Positions 22,437-61,740 of a stretch of DNA of 64,000 nt are shown here, in pieces. Within the stretch, counting starts at the first letter, position 1. Every line of letters begins with the position of its first letter. The notes below the pieces were generated by a model. It saw only the letters and a program-made list of their open reading frames with translations. It was not told the origin of the DNA and searched no databases. The DNA lies in the IMG/VR virus record IMGVR_UViG_3300028376_000003, positions 62,001 through 126,000 of that record. One strand, given 5' to 3'. This stretch comes from a virus. A program made the translations under genes and the position numbers.

Positions 22437-23042
22437 ATGGAAATAAAACAAGAAAGCTATTTCTCGGAAAAAGAGAAATTATTTAAAGAAAGAACTGGTA
22501 AAGATTTTACATTTCTATATAAAAAGTATTATCCTAAACTAATATACTTCACATCTAAGATATGTAATGATAGAAAAAAGGCAGAGGATATATCTACTGA
22601 CTCTTTCATAGTAGCATTTAATAAAATAGAACTTTATGATAAATCAAAGGCACAATTTTCTACATGGTTATTTACAATAGCTAAAAATTTATCTTATCAA
22701 GATGTGAAAAAAAGCAAAAAGTCTATATCACTCGATGTTGAATATGACAATGATGGTACAACAATGAAAAGCTTCATATCAAATGATGAAGATGAAGATG
22801 AGTCTAAGTATATTGTTATTAATAAAAAGGCTAAGTTAATGAAAGATTCGATATATAAGTTAAAAGAGCCTTATAGAACAGTTATTGAAATGAGAGAGAT
22901 TAGAAAGATGTCTTATAAAGACATCTCTAGTGATCTTGGTAAAAACTTGTCCACTATAAAATCACAGATTAGAAATGGTCGTATGCTTTTAATTGACATA
23001 TGTGAAAACAATTTCGATAAAATAGATAAAATGTATTCTTAA
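22437..23042 (+). CDS. ECF-like RNA polymerase sigma factor
   Basis: 201 residues with the two domains of ECF sigma factors. Region 2 is at about 24-92 (FLYKKYYPKLIYFTSKICND, then AEDISTDSFIVAFNKIELYD and FSTWLFTIAKNLSYQD). Region 4 is at about 137-190 (LKEPYRTVIEMREIRKMSYK, then IKSQIRNGRMLL). It should bind host core RNA polymerase and direct it to a set of phage promoters. The repeated TTAATATATA box in front of virion genes is the obvious candidate, since no other sigma is seen in the window. The acidic linker DEDEDES is typical of the family. Confidence 0.9.
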   Translation: MEIKQESYFSEKEKLFKERTGKDFTFLYKKYYPKLIYFTSKICNDRKKAEDISTDSFIVAFNKIELYDKSKAQFSTWLFTIAKNLSYQDVKKSKKSISLDVEYDNDGTTMKSFISNDEDEDESKYIVINKKAKLMKDSIYKLKEPYRTVIEMREIRKMSYKDISSDLGKNLSTIKSQIRNGRMLLIDICENNFDKIDKMYS

Positions 23043-27478: not shown

Positions 27479-27551
27479 CGCGGGGTAGAGCAGTAGGTAG
27501 CTCGCTAGGCTCATAACCTAGAGGTCGTTGGTTCGAGTCCAACTCCCGCTA
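27479..27551 (+). tRNA. tRNA-fMet (CAU), initiator
   Basis: Cloverleaf with anticodon loop CTCATAA (CAT) on the stem TAGG/CCTA, T arm TTGGTTCGAGTCCAA and acceptor GCGGG/CCCGC. The first base C does not pair with its partner, as in initiator tRNAs, and the D arm AGAGCAGTAGGTAGCTC is the fMet form. CCA is not encoded. It is the only tRNA here not preceded by a leader ORF and terminator. Confidence 0.9.
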
Positions 27552-27571
27552 CAAATAAATAAATAAATAAA

Positions 27572-27655
27572 ATGAATACTTTTACTAACATAGAATATTA
27601 TTATGAAGAATCTGAACGAAAACGCTCGGCTAGTCTTTTGATGTCTATAATGTAA
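27572..27655 (+). CDS. Attenuator leader peptide, Tyr/Glu-rich (27 aa)
   Basis: ATG 27572 to TAA 27655. The peptide contains EYYYEESE: three Tyr codons in a row (all TAT) and four Glu codons (all GAA). The tRNAs immediately behind the terminator are tRNA-Tyr and tRNA-Glu. The last codons (TCT ATA ATG TAA) contain GTCTATA (27643-27649), which is complementary to TATAGAC (27692-27698) in the 3' arm of the terminator. The ORF is too short to be found by length filters. By analogy with trp/his-type leaders it acts by being translated, not through its product (inference). Confidence 0.75.
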   Translation: MNTFTNIEYYYEESERKRSASLLMSIM

Positions 27656-27672
27656 ATTAAATTATAGTATAA

Positions 27673-27708
27673 AAAAAACCCAGTCTAGTAATATAGACTG
27701 GGTTTTTT
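27673..27708 (+). terminator. Rho-independent terminator upstream of tRNA-Tyr/Glu
   Basis: Hairpin AAAAAACCCAGTCTA / TAGACTGGGTTTTTT with a six-base loop. It lies between tRNA-fMet and tRNA-Tyr, so it would block the downstream tRNAs unless relieved. Confidence 0.9.
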
Positions 27709-28406: not shown

Positions 28407-28481
28407 ATGAGAACAATTAATAACATAGCAATAATAGCGATAGGCAAAGGGAAAACTCATTGGCTGGGAATTGTTATGTAA
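28407..28481 (+). CDS. Attenuator leader peptide, Ile/Ala/Gly-rich (24 aa)
   Basis: ATG 28407 to TAA 28481. The peptide runs INNIAIIAIGKGK then HWLGIVM. It has six Ile (four ATA codons), two Ala (GCA, GCG) and three Gly (GGC, GGG, GGA). The tRNAs behind the terminator are Ile with anticodon UAU (which reads ATA), two Gly with UCC (GGA/GGG) and Ala with UGC (GCA/GCG). The codon-level match with ATA is especially telling. Near the end of the ORF, TTGGCTGGG (28460-28468) can pair with CCCAGTCAG (28508-28516) in the terminator. Confidence 0.8.
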   Translation: MRTINNIAIIAIGKGKTHWLGIVM

Positions 28482-28504: not shown

Positions 28505-28534
28505 AAACCCAGTCAGAAATGACTGGGTTTTTTA
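28505..28534 (+). terminator. Rho-independent terminator upstream of tRNA-Ile
   Basis: AAACCCAGTC / GACTGGGTTT with loop AGAAAT and a T run; 14 bases before tRNA-Ile. Confidence 0.9.
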
Positions 28535-39817: not shown

Positions 39818-39825
39818 TATATTTG
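39818..39825 (+). promoter_or_regulatory. Bacteroidetes-type -7 element TATATTTG for the large tRNA operon
   Basis: TATATTTGCA; the 80-base stretch from here to the leader ATG is closely similar to that before the second MKNLNLN leader at 44621. Confidence 0.6.
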
Positions 39826-39895
39826 CACAGAACCTAAAATAATTTAAACTTTTAGTAAAAAAAAGAATATAAATAACCAAAGGAAGAAATAAAAT

Positions 39896-39905
39896 TTAAT
39901 ATATA
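39896..39905 (+). promoter_or_regulatory. Late-type box TTAATATATA before tRNA leader
   Basis: Exact box 6 bases before the leader ATG. Confidence 0.6.
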
Positions 39906-39911
39906 ATAGTG

Positions 39912-40031
39912 ATGAAAAATTTAAACCTAAATACAAATAGAAACTTAACGCTCAATGTGGTGAATATTATGTTATGTAATAGACCATCTAGGGGTTCTAG
40001 TGTATTTAATAAATTTCATCTTATGACATAG
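39912..40031 (+). CDS. Attenuator leader peptide, Leu/Asn/Thr/Arg/Val-rich (39 aa)
   Basis: ATG 39912 to TAG 40031. The first 24 residues are M, K, then N, L, T, R, V, I, M and C only (NLNLNTNRNLTLNVVNIMLC). The tRNAs after the terminator are Leu x4, Asn, Ile-like, Arg-like, Val, Cys, Thr and a CAU tRNA: every one of these amino acids occurs in the leader, and only Lys does not match. Codons also agree (TTA/CTA for Leu UAA/UAG, AGA for Arg UCU, ACA for Thr UGU). The sequence TCTAGGGGTT (39987-39996) is a copy of the terminator 3' arm and so can pair with its 5' arm. Confidence 0.8.
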   Translation: MKNLNLNTNRNLTLNVVNIMLCNRPSRGSSVFNKFHLMT

Positions 40032-40054
40032 TGAAATAAAAAATACAAATAACT

Positions 40055-40090
40055 AAAACCCCTAGAAATGAAAATTCTAGGGGTTTTTTT
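40055..40090 (+). terminator. Rho-independent terminator upstream of tRNA-Leu
   Basis: AAAACCCCTAGAA / TTCTAGGGGTTTT with loop ATGAAAA and a T run; 8 bases before the first tRNA. Confidence 0.9.
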
Positions 40091-40097
40091 GTTTTAT

Positions 40098-40182
40098 GCT
40101 AGTGTGGTGGAATGGTAGACACGAGGGATTCAAAATCCTTTAATCAGAAATGATTATATGAGTTCAAATCTCATCATTAGTA
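40098..40182 (+). tRNA. tRNA-Leu (CAA)
   Basis: Acceptor GCTAGTG/CATTAGT, anticodon arm AGGGATTCAAAATCCTT (CAA), long variable arm, T arm ATGAGTTCAAATCTCAT. Confidence 0.85.
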
Positions 40183-40194
40183 CATATATTACAA

Positions 40195-40268
40195 TCCTCG
40201 TTAGCTCAGTGGTCAGAAGCTCTCGTCTGTTAAACGAAAGGTCGGTGGTTCGAATCCACCACGAGGAG
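40195..40268 (+). tRNA. tRNA-Asn (GUU)
   Basis: Acceptor TCCTCGT/ACGAGGA, anticodon arm TCGTCTGTTAAACGA (GTT), T arm GGTGGTTCGAATCCACC. Confidence 0.9.
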
Positions 40269-40276
40269 CAAATAAT

Positions 40277-40358
40277 CGGCATATACCAGCCCAAGCTGAT
40301 ACCTTGGAGAACTGTAGTTGGTAAGTTGAAAACGTAGGTTCGAGTCCTACTGTGCCGA
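40277..40358 (+). tRNA. tRNA-like, anticodon GAU (Ile), D and anticodon regions rearranged
   Basis: Acceptor CGGCATA/TGTGCCG and T arm GTAGGTTCGAGTCCTAC are normal. Only seven bases (TACCAGC) follow the acceptor, where a D arm should be. Then comes a perfect anticodon arm CCAAGCTGATACCTTGG (GAT). A D-arm-like hairpin AACT/AGTT with GG in its loop (40310-40327) lies after the anticodon arm, in the variable region. TACC (40284-40287) could also pair with GGTA (40320-40323). The leader peptide of this operon contains Ile, which supports a functional tRNA-Ile. Alternative: a D-armless tRNA with a long variable arm. Confidence 0.5.
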
Positions 40359-40372
40359 CTTTTATGACACTT

Positions 40373-40457
40373 GTCGGAGTGGTGGAATGGCAGACACGCT
40401 GGGTTTAAGCTCCAGTGGGCAGTGATGTCCGTGAGGGTTCGAGTCCCTTCTCCGATA
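40373..40457 (+). tRNA. tRNA-Leu (UAA), copy 1
   Basis: Acceptor GTCGGAG/CTCCGAT, anticodon arm CTGGGTTTAAGCTCCAG (TAA), long variable arm, T arm GAGGGTTCGAGTCCCTT. Confidence 0.85.
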
Positions 40458-40466
40458 CGAATAAAT

Positions 40467-40556
40467 GCCAGTGTGGTGAAATTGGATGAAACACGCTAGT
40501 CTTAGGAACTAGTACCCAAGAGGTAAACATTGTCGGTTCGAGTCCGACCACTGGTA
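40467..40556 (+). tRNA. tRNA-Leu (UAG)
   Basis: Acceptor GCCAGTG/CACTGGT, anticodon arm CTAGTCTTAGGAACTAG (TAG), long variable arm, T arm GTCGGTTCGAGTCCGAC. Confidence 0.88.
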
Positions 40557-40566
40557 CAAAATAAAT

Positions 40567-40647
40567 GCCTTAGTAGTCCCGATTGTCTTCTAAACAATTA
40601 AGGGTAATTGGAAGCTGAAAATATAGGTTCGAGTCCTATCTAGGGTA
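40567..40647 (+). tRNA. tRNA-like, anticodon UCU (Arg), lacking a normal D arm
   Basis: Acceptor GCCTTAG/CTAGGGT and T arm ATAGGTTCGAGTCCTAT are normal. Eight bases (TAGTCCCG) separate the acceptor from a perfect anticodon arm ATTGTCTTCTAAACAAT (TCT). A 24-base region containing GGGTAATTGG follows before the T arm; CCC (40578-40580) can pair with GGG (40602-40604). This is the same rearranged layout as the Ile-like gene two places upstream. AGA codons in the leader peptide support identity as tRNA-Arg. Confidence 0.5.
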
Positions 40648-40656
40648 CAAATAAAA

Positions 40657-40730
40657 AGTTCTGTAATTCAGGGGTTCAGAATGCTTCCCTTACAAGGAAG
40701 AAGTCGTTGGTTCGAATCCAACCAGAACTA
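40657..40730 (+). tRNA. tRNA-Val (UAC)
   Basis: Acceptor AGTTCTG/CAGAACT, anticodon arm CTTCCCTTACAAGGAAG (TAC), T arm GTTGGTTCGAATCCAAC. Confidence 0.9.
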
Positions 40731-40736
40731 CAAAAT

Positions 40737-40808
40737 GTACCTATGACCGAGTGATTTAGGTAGGTGGCTGCAACCCATCGTACGGGGGTTTGAATCCCTC
40801 TAGGTACT
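40737..40808 (+). tRNA. tRNA-Cys (GCA)
   Basis: Acceptor GTACCTA/TAGGTAC, anticodon arm GTGGCTGCAACCCAT (GCA), T arm GGGGGTTTGAATCCCTC. Confidence 0.85.
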
Positions 40809-40815
40809 CTAATAT

Positions 40816-40888
40816 GCTGACATAGCTCAATTGGTAGAGCATTTGATTTGTAATCAAAAGGTTGTGGGTTCGAAGCCCTCTGTCAGCT
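40816..40888 (+). tRNA. tRNA-Thr (UGU)
   Basis: Acceptor GCTGACA/TGTCAGC, D arm TAGCTCAATTGGTAGAGC, anticodon arm TTTGATTTGTAATCAAA (TGT), T arm GTGGGTTCGAAGCCCTC. Confidence 0.9.
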
Positions 40889-40898
40889 CTGAAAAAAT

Positions 40899-40988
40899 GC
40901 ACTAGTGGCGAAGTGGATGAAACGCATCAGACTTAAAATCTGATACCCTTTGAGGTGAACAACGTGGGTTCAAATCCCACCTGGTGTA
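40899..40988 (+). tRNA. tRNA-Leu (UAA), copy 2
   Basis: Acceptor GCACTAG/CTGGTGT, anticodon arm ATCAGACTTAAAATCTGAT (TAA), long variable arm, T arm GTGGGTTCAAATCCCAC. A second UAA Leu tRNA, diverged from copy 1. Confidence 0.85.
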
Positions 40989-40992
40989 CTAA

Positions 40993-41078
40993 ATCGCTAT
41001 GAACAGATGTGGTAATTGTGCTTGGCTCATATCCAAGTTAGAGAAATCTTATTGTTGGTTCAAGTCCAACTAGCGGTA
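40993..41078 (+). tRNA. tRNA with CAU anticodon and long variable arm
   Basis: Acceptor ATCGCTA/TAGCGGT, anticodon arm CTTGGCTCATATCCAAG (CAT), T arm GTTGGTTCAAGTCCAAC. The variable region is 16 bases (TTAGAGAAATCTTATT, able to form AGA/TCT), a class II size otherwise limited to Leu, Ser and Tyr in bacteria. It may be elongator Met or lysidine-modified Ile. The leader peptide has internal Met and Ile codons, so both are compatible. Confidence 0.6.
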
Positions 41079-41080
41079 CA

Positions 41081-41120
41081 AAAAAAGAGGGGATATAATT
41101 AATTATATCCCCTCTTTTTT
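41081..41120. terminator. Bidirectional terminator, perfect 40-base palindrome
   Basis: AAAAAAGAGGGGATATAATT followed directly by its exact reverse complement. Ends the tRNA operon and the convergent minus-strand gene. Confidence 0.92.
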
Positions 41121-44526: not shown

Positions 44527-44534
44527 TATATTTG
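44527..44534 (+). promoter_or_regulatory. Bacteroidetes-type -7 element TATATTTG for the Asp-Gln-Pro tRNA operon
   Basis: TATATTTGCATAG, 86 bases before the leader ATG; the downstream leader is homologous to that at 39826-39911. Confidence 0.6.
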
Positions 44535-44603
44535 CATAGAAATAATATAATTCTAAACTTTTATAAAAAAAAGTCTATAAATAACCATAGAGAGAAATAA
44601 AAG

Positions 44604-44613
44604 TTAATATATA
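44604..44613 (+). promoter_or_regulatory. Late-type box TTAATATATA before tRNA leader
   Basis: Exact box 7 bases before the leader ATG. Confidence 0.6.
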
Positions 44614-44620
44614 AAACATA

Positions 44621-44725
44621 ATGAAAAATTTAAACTTAAACATAGTAGTTAACCCTCAACCCCAAGTTGATATCGATCAGGATTCTGATACGAAAGGTGC
44701 TAACTATGTTTTAAATTTAAGTTGA
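44621..44725 (+). CDS. Attenuator leader peptide, Pro/Gln/Asp-rich (34 aa)
   Basis: ATG 44621 to TGA 44725. It begins MKNLNLN, as does the leader at 39912, but then reads NPQPQVDIDQDSD: two Pro, three Gln and four Asp within 13 residues. The six tRNAs behind the terminator are Asp, Gln, Pro, Asp, Gln, Pro. The shared opening with different specific codons suggests one ancestral leader retuned to its tRNAs. CTAACTATGTTTT (44700-44712) can pair, with a three-base internal loop, with AAAACTCGGTTAG (44745-44757) of the terminator. Confidence 0.8.
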   Translation: MKNLNLNIVVNPQPQVDIDQDSDTKGANYVLNLS

Positions 44726-44743: not shown

Positions 44744-44784
44744 AAAAACTCGGTTAGTCTTTTAGATTAACCGAGTTTTTTTTG
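44744..44784 (+). terminator. Rho-independent terminator upstream of tRNA-Asp
   Basis: AAAACTCGGTTA / TAACCGAGTTTT with an 11-base loop and eight T; 8 bases before the first tRNA. Confidence 0.9.
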
Positions 44785-55157: not shown

Positions 55158-57407
55158 TTAAATAATCTTTTTAATTATCCCTAGCCTATAGTCGTAAGAG
55201 AAATTAATAGCTATATAGGGTGATTTATCTAACCTAGCTTTTCTTCTAAGATCGTCTATTTTAATATTTTTATAATGTTTATTACTATTTATACCATAAT
55301 TATATTTATACCCAGAAGTAGGTGATGATATATTTTTTATTATTTTTATCATCTTACCTACCGAAATGGCGGTACCACCTTCATTAAAATCTTTATCAAA
55401 ACTATCGTACATGCTCTTGGTGAATGGACCAACCCATTTGCCTTTAACGTCCTGTACTATAAAAAATACTTCTGAACCGTTGCTTCTAAGTGGGTTAGAA
55501 TTTGCCGACATATAACTTGGTGGTGTTGTGTTATAATGCTTGACTGGGTATATATTGTTACTCGAACTTTCATTACTTTGATGAAGACTGTCATCTATGT
55601 AATCTACTATTTCAGTATTATTTGTAATATTAAAATCATTATAATGTACATATATCTCGTCAAGTGTTAAGGAACTACCACTCAATAATTTTAAATGATC
55701 AACCCAAAGTTTTCTTAAACTCTCATTATATTTTATATCAACGACATAGCCATTTGATGTGGTGGGACAAGTGTCTATAATATTTATAGTAGCAGTTTTA
55801 TTCCGACCCCATCTGTTACATCTTCCTATCCGTTGTAATGTGGATTCTGGGGATAATGGTATCTCATATAGATTATTAAAAGATATATCAAGAGCCGCTT
55901 GTAAAATAAGTGTTGATATGTAAGGCTTTCTGTTAGTTGTTTTAGAATCCTTACCATAATCCTTTAATAATTTATCAAACATCTTTAATTTATCACCTTC
56001 TATGAAATTAGAGTGTATTAATATAGCATCTGTTAACTCCTTTGCAATTTCTTGGGATTCTTTTATTGAGTTAACAAATAATATCTCATCGTTTGATATT
56101 GTACTAGGTATCTTATTTATAATATTAACTTTATATTCTTTCTTATGTATAGAAGGTAAGTGGTTTTTTCCATTAGGTATAATCTTAGTTTTGTTTGAAT
56201 TAGTAGTCCACAAATGGCTTATATCGATGGGTGTAGCACTTAATAACAAAGTTCTAGAATCTGTCTTTATGTTTCTAACTCTCATAAGGTTTATAAAGAG
56301 GCTAAATATAGGTAAATCAGTTACATTTTCATGATACTCATCAAATATAACATCACTATGTATTATAAAATACATAAGAGACATGTCTTTACCAGCATTA
56401 CTATATGGTCTTAGATAATAATCAATGTTTGTAATAATGATATCTGCTTCTTTTCCTTCTCCATTAAAGCTTGACTTTTGAACCTTCCCAGCATACCTTA
56501 GTTCTATATTTACTTTCTTTTCAGAGTCTTCTAATTCTTTTACAATAGAATAGTATGTTGATATTGCTATATTATTTCTAGGACATACCCACAATAACTT
56601 TTTATCTGACTTCTCACTCCACATAAGACCTAACATAGTTTTACCAAATCCTGTAGGTGCTTTAATTATTGTAGTTTTATCCTCATCCTTAATATCATTT
56701 ATAATCTTTTTTTGCTCTTTGAATCTTTTGTCGTCAGGGAAGTGACAAACTTCAAATAAGAACTTGTTTGCTTTTTTAAGATTTATATCATCAGCACCAG
56801 ATATAGTTCTATCAGAATAAACTAATATCATTCTAATTAATGTTATATCTCGGTTGAGGTTGTCTGTTTTTTCTTTCCTATCTTTGTTAAATAAAAAGTA
56901 ATCAGGTCTAGTATTGTTATTTTTTTTAGGATTATTAATGATATACTTACTGTCAATTAGTTTACCAAGCTCTTTCTTCATGGTATCTATATCACTAGAT
57001 GGTATACTACCTAAAACATCTTTGGCACAAATCCCCTCATTGTCCAAGATACCATGATGCCAATATATTAGATTGGGTATTATGTTTTTACCAACACAAT
57101 TCTTTATTTCGTTGTCTTTGAAATAATTTACATAATCGAAATAAGTATCTACAAAAGCCCATGAAACTTGTTGATGTAAGTACTTGTTTTTATGTTTCTT
57201 ATCTACTTTCTCTCCATTTATATGTTTTTGGAAAGAGTCTGTTGACTTCCCAATATCGTGTAATAGAGAAGCTACCTTTATGTTTACCATTAAGTGTTCT
57301 TTCACATTTGGTAATTTTTTTAATTCTTTCACAGCCTTATCACTGACTTCCTTTGAATGTTCCTCTAATGATATATTATTACCATTATTCGACTTTGCTA
57401 CTATCAT
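55158..57407 (-). CDS. cas3: Cas3: HD nuclease-helicase of a type I CRISPR system
   Basis: 749 residues. The HD domain is at the N-terminus (His17; SLLHDIGKSTDSFQKH with H50-D51; WHHGIL later). The superfamily 2 helicase follows: Walker A APTGFGKT (about 249), DEYH box (about 355), LLLSATPIDISH (motif III) and QRIGRCNRWGR (motif VI, about 524). It unwinds and degrades DNA marked by the crRNA complex. It is not fused to Cas2, unlike type I-F Cas3. It lies on the far side of the array from the other cas genes and has its own promoter. Confidence 0.93.
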   Translation of the reverse strand: MIVAKSNNGNNISLEEHSKEVSDKAVKELKKLPNVKEHLMVNIKVASLLHDIGKSTDSFQKHINGEKVDKKHKNKYLHQQVSWAFVDTYFDYVNYFKDNEIKNCVGKNIIPNLIYWHHGILDNEGICAKDVLGSIPSSDIDTMKKELGKLIDSKYIINNPKKNNNTRPDYFLFNKDRKEKTDNLNRDITLIRMILVYSDRTISGADDINLKKANKFLFEVCHFPDDKRFKEQKKIINDIKDEDKTTIIKAPTGFGKTMLGLMWSEKSDKKLLWVCPRNNIAISTYYSIVKELEDSEKKVNIELRYAGKVQKSSFNGEGKEADIIITNIDYYLRPYSNAGKDMSLMYFIIHSDVIFDEYHENVTDLPIFSLFINLMRVRNIKTDSRTLLLSATPIDISHLWTTNSNKTKIIPNGKNHLPSIHKKEYKVNIINKIPSTISNDEILFVNSIKESQEIAKELTDAILIHSNFIEGDKLKMFDKLLKDYGKDSKTTNRKPYISTLILQAALDISFNNLYEIPLSPESTLQRIGRCNRWGRNKTATINIIDTCPTTSNGYVVDIKYNESLRKLWVDHLKLLSGSSLTLDEIYVHYNDFNITNNTEIVDYIDDSLHQSNESSSNNIYPVKHYNTTPPSYMSANSNPLRSNGSEVFFIVQDVKGKWVGPFTKSMYDSFDKDFNEGGTAISVGKMIKIIKNISSPTSGYKYNYGINSNKHYKNIKIDDLRRKARLDKSPYIAINFSYDYRLGIIKKII

Positions 57408-57424
57408 ATTAATATTTTAGACTG

Positions 57425-57432
57425 CGAATATA
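57425..57432 (-). promoter_or_regulatory. Bacteroidetes-type -7 element (TATATTCG) for cas3
   Basis: Minus-strand TATATTCG, one mismatch to TATATTTG, 17 bases before the cas3 ATG. Confidence 0.45.
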
Positions 57433-57460
57433 CTAATAAAAAAAACAATTGCTATATATA

Positions 57461-59000
57461 TTTATGATTACCTTATGTATTAATATGATTACTACTAATA
57501 ATTAGCTTCGATTGTTGCGAAGGTCGGTTTTGATTACCTTATGTATTAATATGGTTACTATCTCCAAAAAGGGGTGTTAAGTCTACTTCGTAGTTGTGAT
57601 TACCTTACGTATTAATATGATTACTATCTACATAACTTTTACTCCTGGGAGAAGAGTAGTTGTGATTACCTTGCGTATTAATATGATTACTATCATCACG
57701 TTTACAATGATTAAAGGGGTGATGGTTGTGATTACCTTGCGTATTAATACGATTAGTACAAACCGCTAGCATTCATGTTGTGATTACCTTGTGTATTAAT
57801 ATGATTATTATCTCCTTTAACTGAAAATTAGACCATTTCATGTTGTGATTACCTTGCGTATTAATATGATTAATATTTCATATTCAGACAGTTTAAACGT
57901 GTATTTAGTTGTGATTACCTTATGTATTAATATGATTACTATCTAAAGTAGGAGGCAGAACATCATCTATATTGTTGTGATTACCTTACGTGTTAATATG
58001 ATTACTATCATGCTACCATGCTTTATAAAATAATTACCAGTTGAGATTACCTTACGTATTAATATGATTACTATCTTAAAATCAAAACAGCCAATATAGA
58101 CGAGTGTTGTGATTACCCTATGTATTAATATGATTACTATTTTTTGTATAATCCTAGCCATAATGGCGTTGTTGTGATTACCTTATGTATTAATATGATT
58201 ATTATCACTTTTCAAAAAGAGTCCTATTAAGTATTTGTTGTGATTACCTTGCGTATTAATATGATTACTATCAAAAATAACACTAAGATATTCAGGTTCT
58301 ATGTTATGATTACCTTACGTATTAATATGATCACTATCTAAGCCTTTTGGTAGATATTTGTGTTAAGGTTGTGATTACCCTATGTATTAATATGATTTCT
58401 ATATAGTGCTATTAAAGCATATGTCAATAAAGTGTTGTAATTACTACATTTAATTATTTAGTGGTTTGTTTTAAAATGTCAAAGAACTATTTTTATCTAT
58501 GTAGATAATTACCTTACGTATTAATATGATTACTATCAAAGAATGATGAAGCTACTTATTAAGCTACCGTTGTGATTACCTTACGTATTAATATGATTAC
58601 TATCTAGGAGGTCTTTTGCTACAAATTTTTATGGGTTGTGATTACCTTGCGTATTAATATGATTACTATCATAATCGAGTTGTTGGAACTTTGATTTGTG
58701 GTTGTGATTACCTTGTGTATTAATATGATTACTATCTTGCAAGATTTTCTAGCTTGCGTTGTAAGTGTTGTGATTACCTTGCGTATTAATATGATTACTA
58801 TCATGCTGTAATTAAGATGATGGTAGGTCCATGTTGTGATTACCTTGCGTATTAATATGATTACTATCTATCACGTACCAATTCATTTTTACCCTTATGT
58901 TGTGATTACCTTGCGTATTAATATGATTACTATCAGAAAATTTATCCAAAGGAATACTTATCCCGTTGTGATTACCTTGCGTATTAATATGATTACTATC
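57461..59000 (-). CRISPR. CRISPR array, 36-base repeats, 30-base spacers, 24 repeat units
   Basis: 23 recognisable repeats plus one decayed unit (58434-58469). On the minus strand the repeat starts GATAGTAATC and ends GGTAATCACAAC. Nearly all spacers are 30 bases (29-31); one is 16 bases (57761-57776) and the spacer after the decayed unit is 32. Repeats at the 58.6-59.0 kb end are identical, while those near 57.5-58.5 kb carry many substitutions, so the leader and newest end are at 59,000, next to cas6, and transcription runs on the minus strand like the cas genes. The repeat contains TATTAATA but no strong hairpin. Confidence 0.97.
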
Positions 59001-59003
59001 CTA

Positions 59004-59038
59004 ACTTATATATCTAGCTGAAAGCTAGATATATAAGT
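59004..59038. repeat. Perfect 16-base inverted repeat at the leader edge of the CRISPR array
   Basis: ACTTATATATCTAGCT, loop GAA, then the exact reverse complement. It lies 3 bases from the first repeat and 22 bases from the cas6 stop. It may end or process the cas7-cas5-cas6 transcript, or be a leader-binding site. Confidence 0.85.
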
Positions 59039-59060
59039 GTCATTTAGGATATAAAAACTA

Positions 59061-59765
59061 CTAAAATAGCTCTTCTTTTGGATGGTATTTGCTAATATTA
59101 TCAGTTCTAATTAGAGTCCCAAACCCCGAACCAGTGCTATTACCCAATCCATAATTATATATATGTTCAATAAGACTTCTATCACCATATATAGTGAGTG
59201 GACAATAGCTAGATTTGTTTCTGATGTTATTTACATAAACATTTATAGTTCTGTTTGATTTGTTATTATGACCAATTTCAATTTTGAAGTCTTTGAAACT
59301 TAATCCTTTATTTATCTTAGAAAACTTGGATCTAGTTTGTTCTTCTAAAGCTTTTTCAAATCCACTATCTTTTAATGTTAAAAATCCTAATTTTGTCTTT
59401 AGAAGAATACCATTCCTAAGTGTTTTAAAATGATTATATCCACTATAAAAATTTCCAGATATGTAATCAATACCATTTACTTTCATACCCTTTCCTAGAT
59501 TACCATCTAAATGTAATCCATTTATGACTTTACCGATAAAATCTTCTTTCAACGAACTCACAACAATAAAGCCACCATTTGGAAAATTTACATCTCGTCC
59601 ACCATTTATAAACACACCACCTTCTAGGTTTGATATTGTATAATCTGATACAGAGTTATGATATTTGTTGTTCTTGCCTAGACATTTATGTATAAATCCA
59701 TTTACTATTTTCTGATTATTAATTAATGGTTCAGTGTTTGGAGTAAAACTAATTTTAATTCTCAT
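59061..59765 (-). CDS. cas6: Cas6 crRNA-processing endoribonuclease
   Basis: 234 residues. It starts MRIKISFTPN as Cas6 proteins do, has a likely catalytic His36 in KYHNSVSDYTISNL, and ends with the glycine-rich loop GLGNSTGSGFGTL (206-218) typical of the second RRM-like domain. It cuts the array transcript within repeats. It resembles general Cas6 more than Cas6f. It lies 10 bases after cas5. Confidence 0.88.
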   Translation of the reverse strand: MRIKISFTPNTEPLINNQKIVNGFIHKCLGKNNKYHNSVSDYTISNLEGGVFINGGRDVNFPNGGFIVVSSLKEDFIGKVINGLHLDGNLGKGMKVNGIDYISGNFYSGYNHFKTLRNGILLKTKLGFLTLKDSGFEKALEEQTRSKFSKINKGLSFKDFKIEIGHNNKSNRTINVYVNNIRNKSSYCPLTIYGDRSLIEHIYNYGLGNSTGSGFGTLIRTDNISKYHPKEELF

Positions 59766-59775
59766 GTTTTATGTT

Positions 59776-60645
59776 TTAATGGTTAATAATTTGATTTGAT
59801 ATATCAGATACTTTTTTGTATTTATCAAACTCTCTGCTACTTATATCTTCTTCATCAATGATGCCATCAATAAATACAATACCACCATCTAATATAGTTG
59901 AAAATGGCTTCATCACACTCTCCCTTTCTCGTAAAAAGTCATTTACTGGTATTAATATTTCACCATTGTATATTTCAAACTTCTCAATACCACTATTTAC
60001 CAATATAGGACTTCCATCTTGTATTGATGAAGTTACAGTATTTTTACCAGTCTGGATAGTTCTAACCAATGCTGTTTTACCAAGTCTAGAAATAGCTACA
60101 AAAACAGCTTTGACTTTTGTGTCATCTTTTATATTTCTTATCTCTGACTCTATGTCTTTGTAGTTATATTCTAGAATGTTCTTTTTAAGTATTTTTGAAA
60201 ACTCCTTTACAAAATACCCCCAGGCTAGACCTTTATTATAAGTCATATATTTTCTAACTAGTTCCCAATTCAATTTAATTGATGGATTAAATGAATTGTA
60301 GAAAGCTTTCTTAGTTGATATAGTCTCTAGATACTTATTGACCTTATTGTTTTTAAAAACAGGTTTAAACACAGTTTCTACACGAATAAGTGAATTTGAC
60401 ACCAAGTCATCAATTTCACTTATTCTCTTATAAAAGACTTTTCTATGAAGAGGAACAGGTCTCTCACCTAGAAGTACATGAATTGAATTAGACAATTGAT
60501 GATGTGTTATTGGCTCTACATAAGAAAATAAGTTATTTCTATTAACTCTATGAACTTTAGGCCCAGAATATATAGACTTGTCTTTAGTGCCTTTATTATA
60601 CCTAAATAATTTGGCATCTTTGAATATTAGTTTAAGATATTCCAT
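59776..60645 (-). CDS. cas5: Cas5-like protein of a minimal type I effector
   Basis: 289 residues. It is diverged; the N-terminal segment YVEPITHHQLSNSIHVLLGE (about 42-61) occupies the place of the Cas5 P-P-S-A-L-x-G-L-L-G motif, and the position between cas7 and cas6 is the usual one for cas5. No Cas8 or other large subunit is encoded, so this protein may also do target-DNA (PAM) recognition, as Cas5fv does in type I-F2. The remaining 200 residues are not recognised and could be a fused or expanded part. Confidence 0.65.
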   Translation of the reverse strand: MEYLKLIFKDAKLFRYNKGTKDKSIYSGPKVHRVNRNNLFSYVEPITHHQLSNSIHVLLGERPVPLHRKVFYKRISEIDDLVSNSLIRVETVFKPVFKNNKVNKYLETISTKKAFYNSFNPSIKLNWELVRKYMTYNKGLAWGYFVKEFSKILKKNILEYNYKDIESEIRNIKDDTKVKAVFVAISRLGKTALVRTIQTGKNTVTSSIQDGSPILVNSGIEKFEIYNGEILIPVNDFLRERESVMKPFSTILDGGIVFIDGIIDEEDISSREFDKYKKVSDISNQIINH

Positions 60646-60654
60646 AAATTATTT

Positions 60655-61740
60655 TTATTTCTTTTTAGACTTTAATGCTTTCTCTTCAGCCGCCTCTTTG
60701 ATTATAGCCTTTTCTTTTTCGATACCTTTATTAATTCTTTCTTCTGTTTTTTCAACTATATGACCACTAACTTCCTCATAAAAATCAAAGGGTTTAAACG
60801 AGATATTTTTAATATCTTTCATATTTTTTATATCATCCCAACCTTCTGGATTTCTCATAGTATCTACATAAGGATCTCTTACTAGCTTTATTCTAACGCT
60901 AATTACATCAGCACTAGCATTACTTCTTTTTATTTGTGTTTTTAACAAACGGTATATATATTCTTTTACCAAATATACAACATTATCATCATTCAGCTTA
61001 ATACCATATTCTGCAAGATCTAGACATGATGTTGATAATTTGTAATATGCCAACTTTGTATCAGTGCTATTAAGATTCATATTCAAAGACTTTATCAATA
61101 TCTCAGCATTATCTGGATTAAATCCATATCTATCGAAAGCTGCATCACAAGATAAAAATTGTAATTGTCCAATGTCTATAAAGGAAGTACCACTATATTT
61201 TATATCTCCTAAAGACTCATATTGAAACAAGCTTGTACTACCCTTTCCAGAGATTGGAGACTTTTTACTACCTGCTTTAACTGCTTGTGGTAAAGTAGGT
61301 AGTGCAGTACATGTCTGTTGGATATTGCCTGTGGTTATTGGACCTTTTCTTTTTAAACTTTCACCCTTTGTTGCTTTCAAATAACCCTTTAGGATTGCAT
61401 GTGTAGATCCTAGGTAGTTATAAAGAGTATTCTTATCATATAAAGCTCTTGGGTTATCTTCTACGTAATCTTCTTTAAACAGTGCCTTGTTAAAACATTC
61501 TGCTGATATCTTAACCTTAAAATCTAACTGACCTTTCTCGTTATAGAAGAAATTCTTTTTAGAATAGTTACAATTATCGTTAATCTGTGCCAATGCTTTT
61601 ACTTTTGGCATTCTATCATCATCTTTTTTATTAGCATCTTTGAAGAACATGAACTTCTGATCTGTTGAATCAAAGTTTACAATACCACTTCCTTCTAATT
61701 TAAAGTCTACTAGAATACCACTTACTGGTGAATTACTCAT
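60655..61740 (-). CDS. cas7: Cas7-like backbone protein, resembling type I-F2 (I-Fv) Cas7
   Basis: 361 residues. The opening VSGILVDFKLEGSGIVNFDS and the central block STSLFQYESLGDIKYSGTSF followed by IDIGQLQFLSCDAAFDRYG fit my memory of the minimal type I-Fv Cas7 (GSITIEELQFISLDKKFDR). The rest has Cas7-like helical and strand segments and a long Lys/Glu tail. Multiple copies would coat the crRNA. First gene of the cas7-cas5-cas6 operon, with its own host-type promoter. Confidence 0.8.
   Translation of the reverse strand: MSNSPVSGILVDFKLEGSGIVNFDSTDQKFMFFKDANKKDDDRMPKVKALAQINDNCNYSKKNFFYNEKGQLDFKVKISAECFNKALFKEDYVEDNPRALYDKNTLYNYLGSTHAILKGYLKATKGESLKRKGPITTGNIQQTCTALPTLPQAVKAGSKKSPISGKGSTSLFQYESLGDIKYSGTSFIDIGQLQFLSCDAAFDRYGFNPDNAEILIKSLNMNLNSTDTKLAYYKLSTSCLDLAEYGIKLNDDNVVYLVKEYIYRLLKTQIKRSNASADVISVRIKLVRDPYVDTMRNPEGWDDIKNMKDIKNISFKPFDFYEEVSGHIVEKTEERINKGIEKEKAIIKEAAEEKALKSKKK

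Follow-up and report, generated by a model that had tools for sequence, protein, structure and literature searches.

Leader ORFs matched to downstream tRNA genes point to ribosome-mediated attenuation of tRNA operons in a relative of huge phages

Introduction

Why phages carry transfer RNA (tRNA) genes, and when these genes are expressed, is an open question, sharpened by the existence of host defences that cleave tRNAs. The question is raised here by bases 62001-126000 of the 141.5-kilobase (kb) IMG/VR virus record IMGVR_UViG_3300028376_000003 (the window: the whole 64,000-nucleotide stretch that was analysed; the motifs, leaders, terminators and tRNA operons of the units described below lie on its plus strand). 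tRNA genes were located with ARAGORN and Rfam in three regions of the window, and four units consisting of a short leader open reading frame (ORF) and an intrinsic terminator were counted there, one ahead of each tRNA group (4/4). As judged from sequence comparison, each tRNA operon of this phage is very probably governed by a ribosome-mediated transcription attenuator. The evidence is presented for unit 3, then across other phages.

Results

Composition of the unit 3 leader

The unit 3 leader ORF has 39 codons (39912..40031, ATG at 39912, stop codon at 40029-40031; translation MKNLNLNTNRNLTLNVVNIMLCNRPSRGSSVFNKFHLMT), with the tRNA-cognate codons at 39915-39983. The operon behind it (40098..41079) encodes Leu, Asn, a candidate Ile (40273), Leu, Leu, Arg (40567), Val, Cys, Thr, Leu and Met tRNAs, and is followed by a terminator (41081..41120). 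Leader residues 2-24 fall within the set {L,N,I,R,V,C,T,M} at 22 of 23 positions (21/23 without the candidate tRNA-Ile), and they include all eight operon amino acids. Random ORFs of matched base composition reach at least 22/23 with a probability of about 7-8e-6, and none of 200,000 simulated ORFs combined that score with all eight amino acids. Among 628 real ATG-started 24-codon stretches of the window, the leader ranked first. The sequence-only reading had stated that the first 24 residues are the amino acids of the downstream tRNAs save one, which is borne out for residues 2-24 with the Ile candidate counted; the composition test that it proposed gave the values above, and its concern that random AT-rich ORFs might often look alike found no support in the simulations.

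The same reading had counted 11 tRNAs. Ten are called: Leu(caa), Asn, Leu(taa), Leu(tag), Val, Cys, Thr, Leu(taa) and Met by ARAGORN (nine genes), and one by Rfam at 40567-40647, which was assigned to Arg(TCT) by its anticodon loop. The eleventh, at about 40273-40358 and called by neither ARAGORN nor Rfam, remains a candidate Ile(GAT), predicted from its acceptor, anticodon and T-arm fold. The Ile-GAT candidate (40273-40358) and the Arg-TCT tRNA (40567-40647) are both odd: in each the D region is short, and a long insert that looks like a D loop separates the anticodon arm from the T arm (AGTTGGTAAG, AATTGGAAGC); the Arg-TCT tRNA is kept in relatives with 76-84% identity.

Predicted alternative pairings in the unit 3 RNA

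The segment TCTAGGGGTT occurs twice, at 39987..39996 inside the leader and at 40076-40085 as the 3' arm of the terminator, and the complementary 5' arm, AACCCCTAGA, lies at 40057-40066. The proposed exact leader copy of the 3' arm, able to pair with the 5' arm as a ten-base antiterminator, is therefore real; an arm copy of equal length was found in 4 of 20,000 dinucleotide shuffles. The terminator itself (40055..40087) has 13 pairs and a T tract. Within the antiterminator an apical hairpin (40001..40047) is predicted, with the leader stop codon near its tip. Predicted energies were -25 kcal/mol for the antiterminator and -17.4 kcal/mol for the terminator. In a footprint model, a ribosome at codons 5-20 left the antiterminator intact (-25 to -30 kcal/mol), a ribosome at codon 24 left half of it, and a ribosome at codon 28 or at the stop codon left none.

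Recurrence in related and cultivated phages

The closest named relatives of the window are huge uncultured phages of the sort described in 'Clades of huge phages' (PMC7162821): LR745206 (634 kb), LR756502 (642 kb), LR756501 (735 kb) and LR756504 (636 kb). Weaker similarity was seen to Lak, Tenacibaculum, Sphingomonas, Chryseobacterium and Flavobacterium phages. The tRNA clusters of relatives were searched with a script for tRNA genes preceded by an intrinsic terminator, with the end of a short ORF lying 8-46 nucleotides (nt) ahead of that terminator. Two pipeline hits were discarded as false (pipeline unit 7, with a lone Met tRNA, and pipeline unit 23), and 62 leader-terminator-tRNA units were accepted in 13 related huge phages. 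A strong stem with a T tract lies between the leader ORF and the first tRNA gene in each listed unit.

The same architecture precedes nearly every tRNA cluster of the related huge phages, and of Bacteroidota phages unrelated to them, with leader codons fitted to the tRNAs of each operon. Thus MTTSFQQQQQQQINRTD precedes four tRNA-Gln, MTTNSTHKNFSKSHKWFSNQSFGTESVLSLN precedes His, Phe, His, Phe, Trp and four Lys, MKAMILSLCLSLSLSLQKLGVVGVCKVIS precedes Leu, Leu, Ser, Cys, Ser, Ser, Leu, Leu, and a leader beginning MKTVNTNIAIVEIAVIGGAEEGVMG precedes Glu, Ala, Ile, Val, Gly, Glu. Two clusters missed by the script were found by reading: MLFNSNISVKFTPAPAVAFRRGTGTGTGTCVPAGCGFEGMNG ahead of Arg, Thr, Val, Ala, Gly, Pro and, in the 735-kb phage, MKNMVRKYNDYCINDKLKMLIG ahead of Ile, Cys, Asp, Asn, Tyr. 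Further units outside the 62 are present in LR756501 and LR756504. The latter has two units in tandem: the first leader, which is followed by tRNA-Asp, includes Asp codons, and the second leader, past that tRNA-Asp, has none. Lak-B2 carries a leader beginning MKTLNMTYCIHPVCGMVHMFPCGGGRPM ahead of His, Pro, Arg, Arg, Gly, Gly, Cys, Met.

Three units were found in the cultivated Cellulophaga phage phi4:1: MKIQRLHLQELEQPIISGGTGV precedes Pro, Glu, Gln, His, Leu, Leu, Arg; MQLTKTGITVIDKTKGARAYLGDTVIG (GTG start; annotated as a hypothetical gene with a longer start) precedes Ala, Lys, Ile, Gly, Met, Asp, Thr, Val, Arg, Met; and a leader beginning MKTNYCTYNNSNWSFSYDTGSV precedes Tyr, Ser, Asn, Trp, Phe. 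Counterparts occur in phi17:2, phi38:1, Calle_1, phi10:1 and Tenacibaculum phage Gundel_1. When viral contigs were searched blindly with the Gln-leader pattern alone, the next same-strand tRNA was Gln in 3/3 new testable contigs. Six phages from other host phyla (Bacillus P59, Vibrio 1.081.O, Synechococcus DSL-LC02, Aeromonas P19, a Vequintavirus and Mycobacterium Pleione) were put through the same script, and no cognate leader was found at their tRNA clusters; they give no support for extending the pattern to every tRNA-rich phage.

Codon choice and complementarity across units

Operons were permuted over 29 distinct leader types, some of them possibly related (for example those of phi4:1 and phi38:1). 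On average, a fraction of 0.487 of leader residues matched the operon (0.227+-0.022 with operons permuted), and leaders contained a fraction of 0.994 of their operon's amino acids (0.622+-0.046 permuted); neither observed value was reached in 200,000 permutations. Restriction to one unit per type for the 17 huge-phage types gave the same result.

The fit extends to the anticodon. With an operon tRNA-Ile of anticodon UAU, 23 of 33 Ile codons are ATA, against 2 of 18 with GAU (p 8e-5, orthologues included), where AUU/AUC are used instead. Likewise, the choice of AGR or CGN codons for Arg tracks UCU/CCU or ACG/GCG anticodons (p 9e-4, orthologues included).

A leader segment significantly complementary to the terminator 5' arm was found in 46/62 units. 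Before the 3' arm is made, the predicted fraction of the 5' arm paired with leader RNA is 0.68, against 0.38 for shuffled leaders. Leader segment, 5' arm and 3' arm change together between phages (e.g. CTAGGGGTT/AACCCCTAG, CTGAGGGTT/AACCCTCAG, GAATCTGGGTT/AACCCAGATTC), a pattern that would be difficult to account for if either of the alternative pairings were unimportant. This co-variation was read from per-unit pairings; in a MAFFT alignment of type-3 leaders the divergent G007 was misaligned in the arms.

Units 1, 2 and 4 of the window

The antiterminator is strong in units 2 and 3. In unit 2 the leader ORF MRTINNIAIIAIGKGKTHWLGIVM (28407..28481), whose Ile codons are mostly ATA, contains the antiterminator segment TTGGCTGGG (28460-28468), and the terminator (28505..28530) is followed by tRNA-Ile(UAU), Gly, Gly and Ala. 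Unit 1 comprises the leader ORF MNTFTNIEYYYEESERKRSASLLMSIM (27572..27655), with a weak antiterminator, and a terminator (27674..27707) ahead of tRNA-Tyr (27722) and tRNA-Glu (27815). A tRNA-Met at 27479-27552 lies 5' of the unit 1 leader and would be beyond attenuator control; a Met tRNA is kept there in some related phages.

Unit 4 has the leader ORF MKNLNLNIVVNPQPQVDIDQDSDTKGANYVLNLS (44621..44725), the antiterminator segment GCTAACT (44699-44705) and a terminator (44746..44778) ahead of tRNA-Asp, Gln, Pro (44960), Asp, Gln and Pro. The promoter-to-leader-start stretches of units 3 and 4 (39818-39931 and 44527-44640) are 85% identical over 114 nt, MKNLNLN included; because of this identity, leaders seem to have spread by duplication, the cognate stretch being rewritten afterwards. 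In a near-identical relative (L011 versus L012), about 700 extra bases lie between tRNA-Asn and the next tRNAs of operon 3, and the tRNA cluster therefore tolerates insertions.

Promoter-like and start-proximal motifs

Upstream of the unit 3 leader lies the promoter-like element TATATTTG (39818..39825), of the Bacteroidota -7 type TAnnTTTG, with a TTG about 20 nt further upstream. TAnnTTTG was found at most 150 nt upstream of 39/62 leaders (4.1 expected from shuffles). The motif AATATATA (39898..39905) stands 14 nt ahead of the unit 3 start codon, and precedes 41/62 leaders, mostly at 12-16 nt from the start codon (5.1 expected). The enrichment of both motifs lends support to transcription beginning a short way upstream of the leaders and to initiation at these start codons. 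AATATATA also occurs within 60 nt upstream of 15 of the 59 window ORFs of at least 100 amino acids, and is possibly a phage promoter or translation-start element.

Other features of the window and its relatives

A phage-encoded sigma factor (Sigma70_r2 and r4 by Pfam) at 22437-23039 is a candidate reader of the phage's own promoters. A phage-borne type I-like CRISPR-Cas locus is present (55158-61740 and 57440-59000), with a Cas3 helicase/nuclease and Cas6 by Pfam, two adjoining ORFs lacking a Pfam match where Cas5 and Cas7 would stand, and an array in which a repeat recurs more than 20 times at a spacing of about 66 nt. At loci L013-L015, where the neighbour gene is 55% identical, tRNAs are absent nearby. 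Several related or Bacteroidota phages carry tRNAs with a CUA anticodon (amber suppressor-like; labelled Pyl by ARAGORN) at L041, L064, L065, L098, L101 and L111, apart from the attenuated operons.

Discussion

What, then, would decide whether these tRNA operons are transcribed? From the arrangement of the units we infer that the leaders are translated, that ribosomes stall on them and that antitermination occurs in vivo, with the following polarity. RNA polymerase would start at a promoter tens of bases upstream and transcribe the short leader ORF, whose codons are those that the downstream tRNAs decode. When such a tRNA is scarce (uncharged, cleaved by a host defence, or rare for the codon use of the phage), the ribosome would lag in the cognate stretch and leave the segment just past it (TCTAGGGGTT in unit 3) free to pair with the terminator 5' arm. 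The resulting long hairpin, in which the stop codon lies close to the tip, would block the terminator, and the tRNA operon would be transcribed. When tRNAs suffice, the ribosome would follow closely, cross the segment, reach the stop codon and break the antiterminator, so that the terminator forms and transcription ends. The outcome would be a demand-driven negative feedback on groups of tRNAs, most likely triggered when the isoacceptors that the operon encodes fall short in decoding. The multi-amino-acid attenuator leader with a terminator-arm copy as antiterminator, as proposed in the sequence-only reading, is supported by the composition and shuffle tests and above all by the recurrence across phages; the nested hairpin around the stop codon, the choice of codons at the anticodon level and the breadth across phages go beyond it.

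The anatomy could in principle have other origins. That short AT-rich ORFs and ordinary terminators just happen to precede tRNA genes is scarcely credible: Asn, Leu, Ile and Lys are common in AT-rich ORFs and shuffles also yield terminator-like sites at some rate, but against this stand the probability obtained for unit 3, the 0/200,000 permutations over 29 types, the anticodon-level match of codon choice and the absence of units at the tRNA clusters of the Bacillus, Vibrio, Synechococcus, Aeromonas, Vequintavirus and Mycobacterium phages. Chance AT-rich composition of the unit 3 leader is ruled out by the random-ORF null and the permutation of the 29 types, and the chance explanation as a whole is, as far as genome comparison can tell, already refuted by the other phages. 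It is also very improbable that the ORFs encode functional microproteins and that the terminators merely insulate the tRNA operons from upstream transcription. Orthologous leaders are partly conserved (e.g. NVVNITLCNIRP) and one leader is annotated as a gene in Cellulophaga phages; however, compositions like QQQQQQQ or TGTGTGT mirror the tRNAs encoded behind them and shift when these do, and the copy of the terminator arm would be left unexplained.

Two further explanations keep the same anatomy and differ in its signal or its sense. The signal might be amino-acid starvation (the charging level) instead of tRNA supply, the rise in tRNA gene expression being a general starvation response. Classical attenuators do answer to charged-tRNA levels, and an uncharged tRNA is indistinguishable from a missing one by sequence alone; nevertheless we consider this rather unlikely, given operons that hold tRNAs only and no biosynthesis enzymes, leaders that mix up to ten or more unrelated amino acids, and codons that follow the anticodon of the encoded isoacceptor beyond the amino acid alone. 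It is less likely still that the polarity is opposite, leader translation promoting tRNA expression, or that RNA processing or translation acts in place of termination. The favoured polarity is drawn from geometry only. Against these alternatives, the unit 3 cognate stretch ends just 5' of the antiterminator segment, the antiterminator is lost in the footprint model once RNA is blocked as far as the stop codon, and strong T-tract terminators are found in each unit.

Attenuation of the tRNA operons is thus the preferred explanation, and several observations weigh against it or limit it. Many of the 62 units are orthologues, and the raw counts, those of the codon tests included, overstate independence. 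Taken alone, the antiterminators in units 1 and 4 of the window are weak or non-significant. The predicted stop-codon hairpin inside the antiterminator has modest support (49/54 units against 36.9 expected, mean z -0.92), and was downgraded as strong evidence on its own for that z value. The unit 3 antiterminator segment ends 32 nt 5' of the stop codon; a ribosome at the stop codon therefore no longer covers the segment and must act on the apical hairpin, and the footprint model leaves out the pairing of RNA behind the ribosome. In ribosome-free RNA an average of 68% of the 5' arm pairs with the leader, and no dominant protector hairpin was seen, though no search was aimed at one; with no trp-type protector evident, ribosome-free RNA is predicted to antiterminate.

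Attenuators of the trp, his, thr, ilv and leu operons and of enterobacterial pheST consist of a short leader ORF rich in regulatory codons, an intrinsic terminator and a mutually exclusive antiterminator, and stalling leads to read-through. The phage units share the leader ORF, the terminator and the competing antiterminator. They differ in that the regulated genes are tRNA genes, not genes for biosynthesis or aminoacyl-tRNA synthetases, in leaders that carry anticodon-chosen codons for sets of up to ten or more amino acids, in their location in phage genomes, in the stop codon lying inside the antiterminator hairpin and in that no protector hairpin is evident. Like T-box riboswitches, the units are proposed to make a tRNA-dependent choice between terminator and antiterminator; unlike them, they use a leader ORF, whereas T-box RNA binds uncharged tRNA directly. 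Only tRNA matches were obtained in the window with Rfam at gathering threshold and none to the T-box, and the T-box and known Rfam leader families (His, Trp, Thr and other leaders) were ruled out on this ground. Attenuation is thus known as a class from amino-acid operons and its use on tRNA genes seems undescribed; to our knowledge, this would be the first. No precedent for attenuation of phage tRNA genes by anticodon-matched multi-amino-acid leaders was found in the literature searched, from which preprints and most subscription papers were left out, and in the text of PMC7162821 'tRNA' occurs 37 times and 'attenuat' 0 times.

In the abstracts of two papers (PMC11555353, PMC12409363), phage tRNAs are reported to evade tRNA-cleaving host defences. 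Those arrays resemble the units described here in that phage tRNA genes replace host tRNAs; the abstracts treat tRNA supply and not, as here, leader-controlled expression. Because of these reports, we raise a link to tRNA-cleaving defences as a hypothesis. Tentatively, and with rather less confidence than in attenuation itself, the batteries of attenuators, which would split up nearly the whole tRNA set, might act as a sensor of tRNA sufficiency: they would detect the loss of any isoacceptor during infection (e.g. to host anticodon nucleases) and turn on the matching replacements, serving as a widespread counter-defence and a means of translation homeostasis in Bacteroidota phages.

Since cultivated phages carry such units (Cellulophaga phi4:1, phi17:2, phi38:1, phi10:1 and Calle_1; Tenacibaculum Gundel_1), the attenuator reading is directly testable. 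If it is true, these phages gauge decoding capacity one codon at a time and produce tRNAs as they are needed, ribosome-mediated attenuation would extend to viruses of Bacteroidota, and the leaders would offer a built-in readout of tRNA shortage in infected cells.
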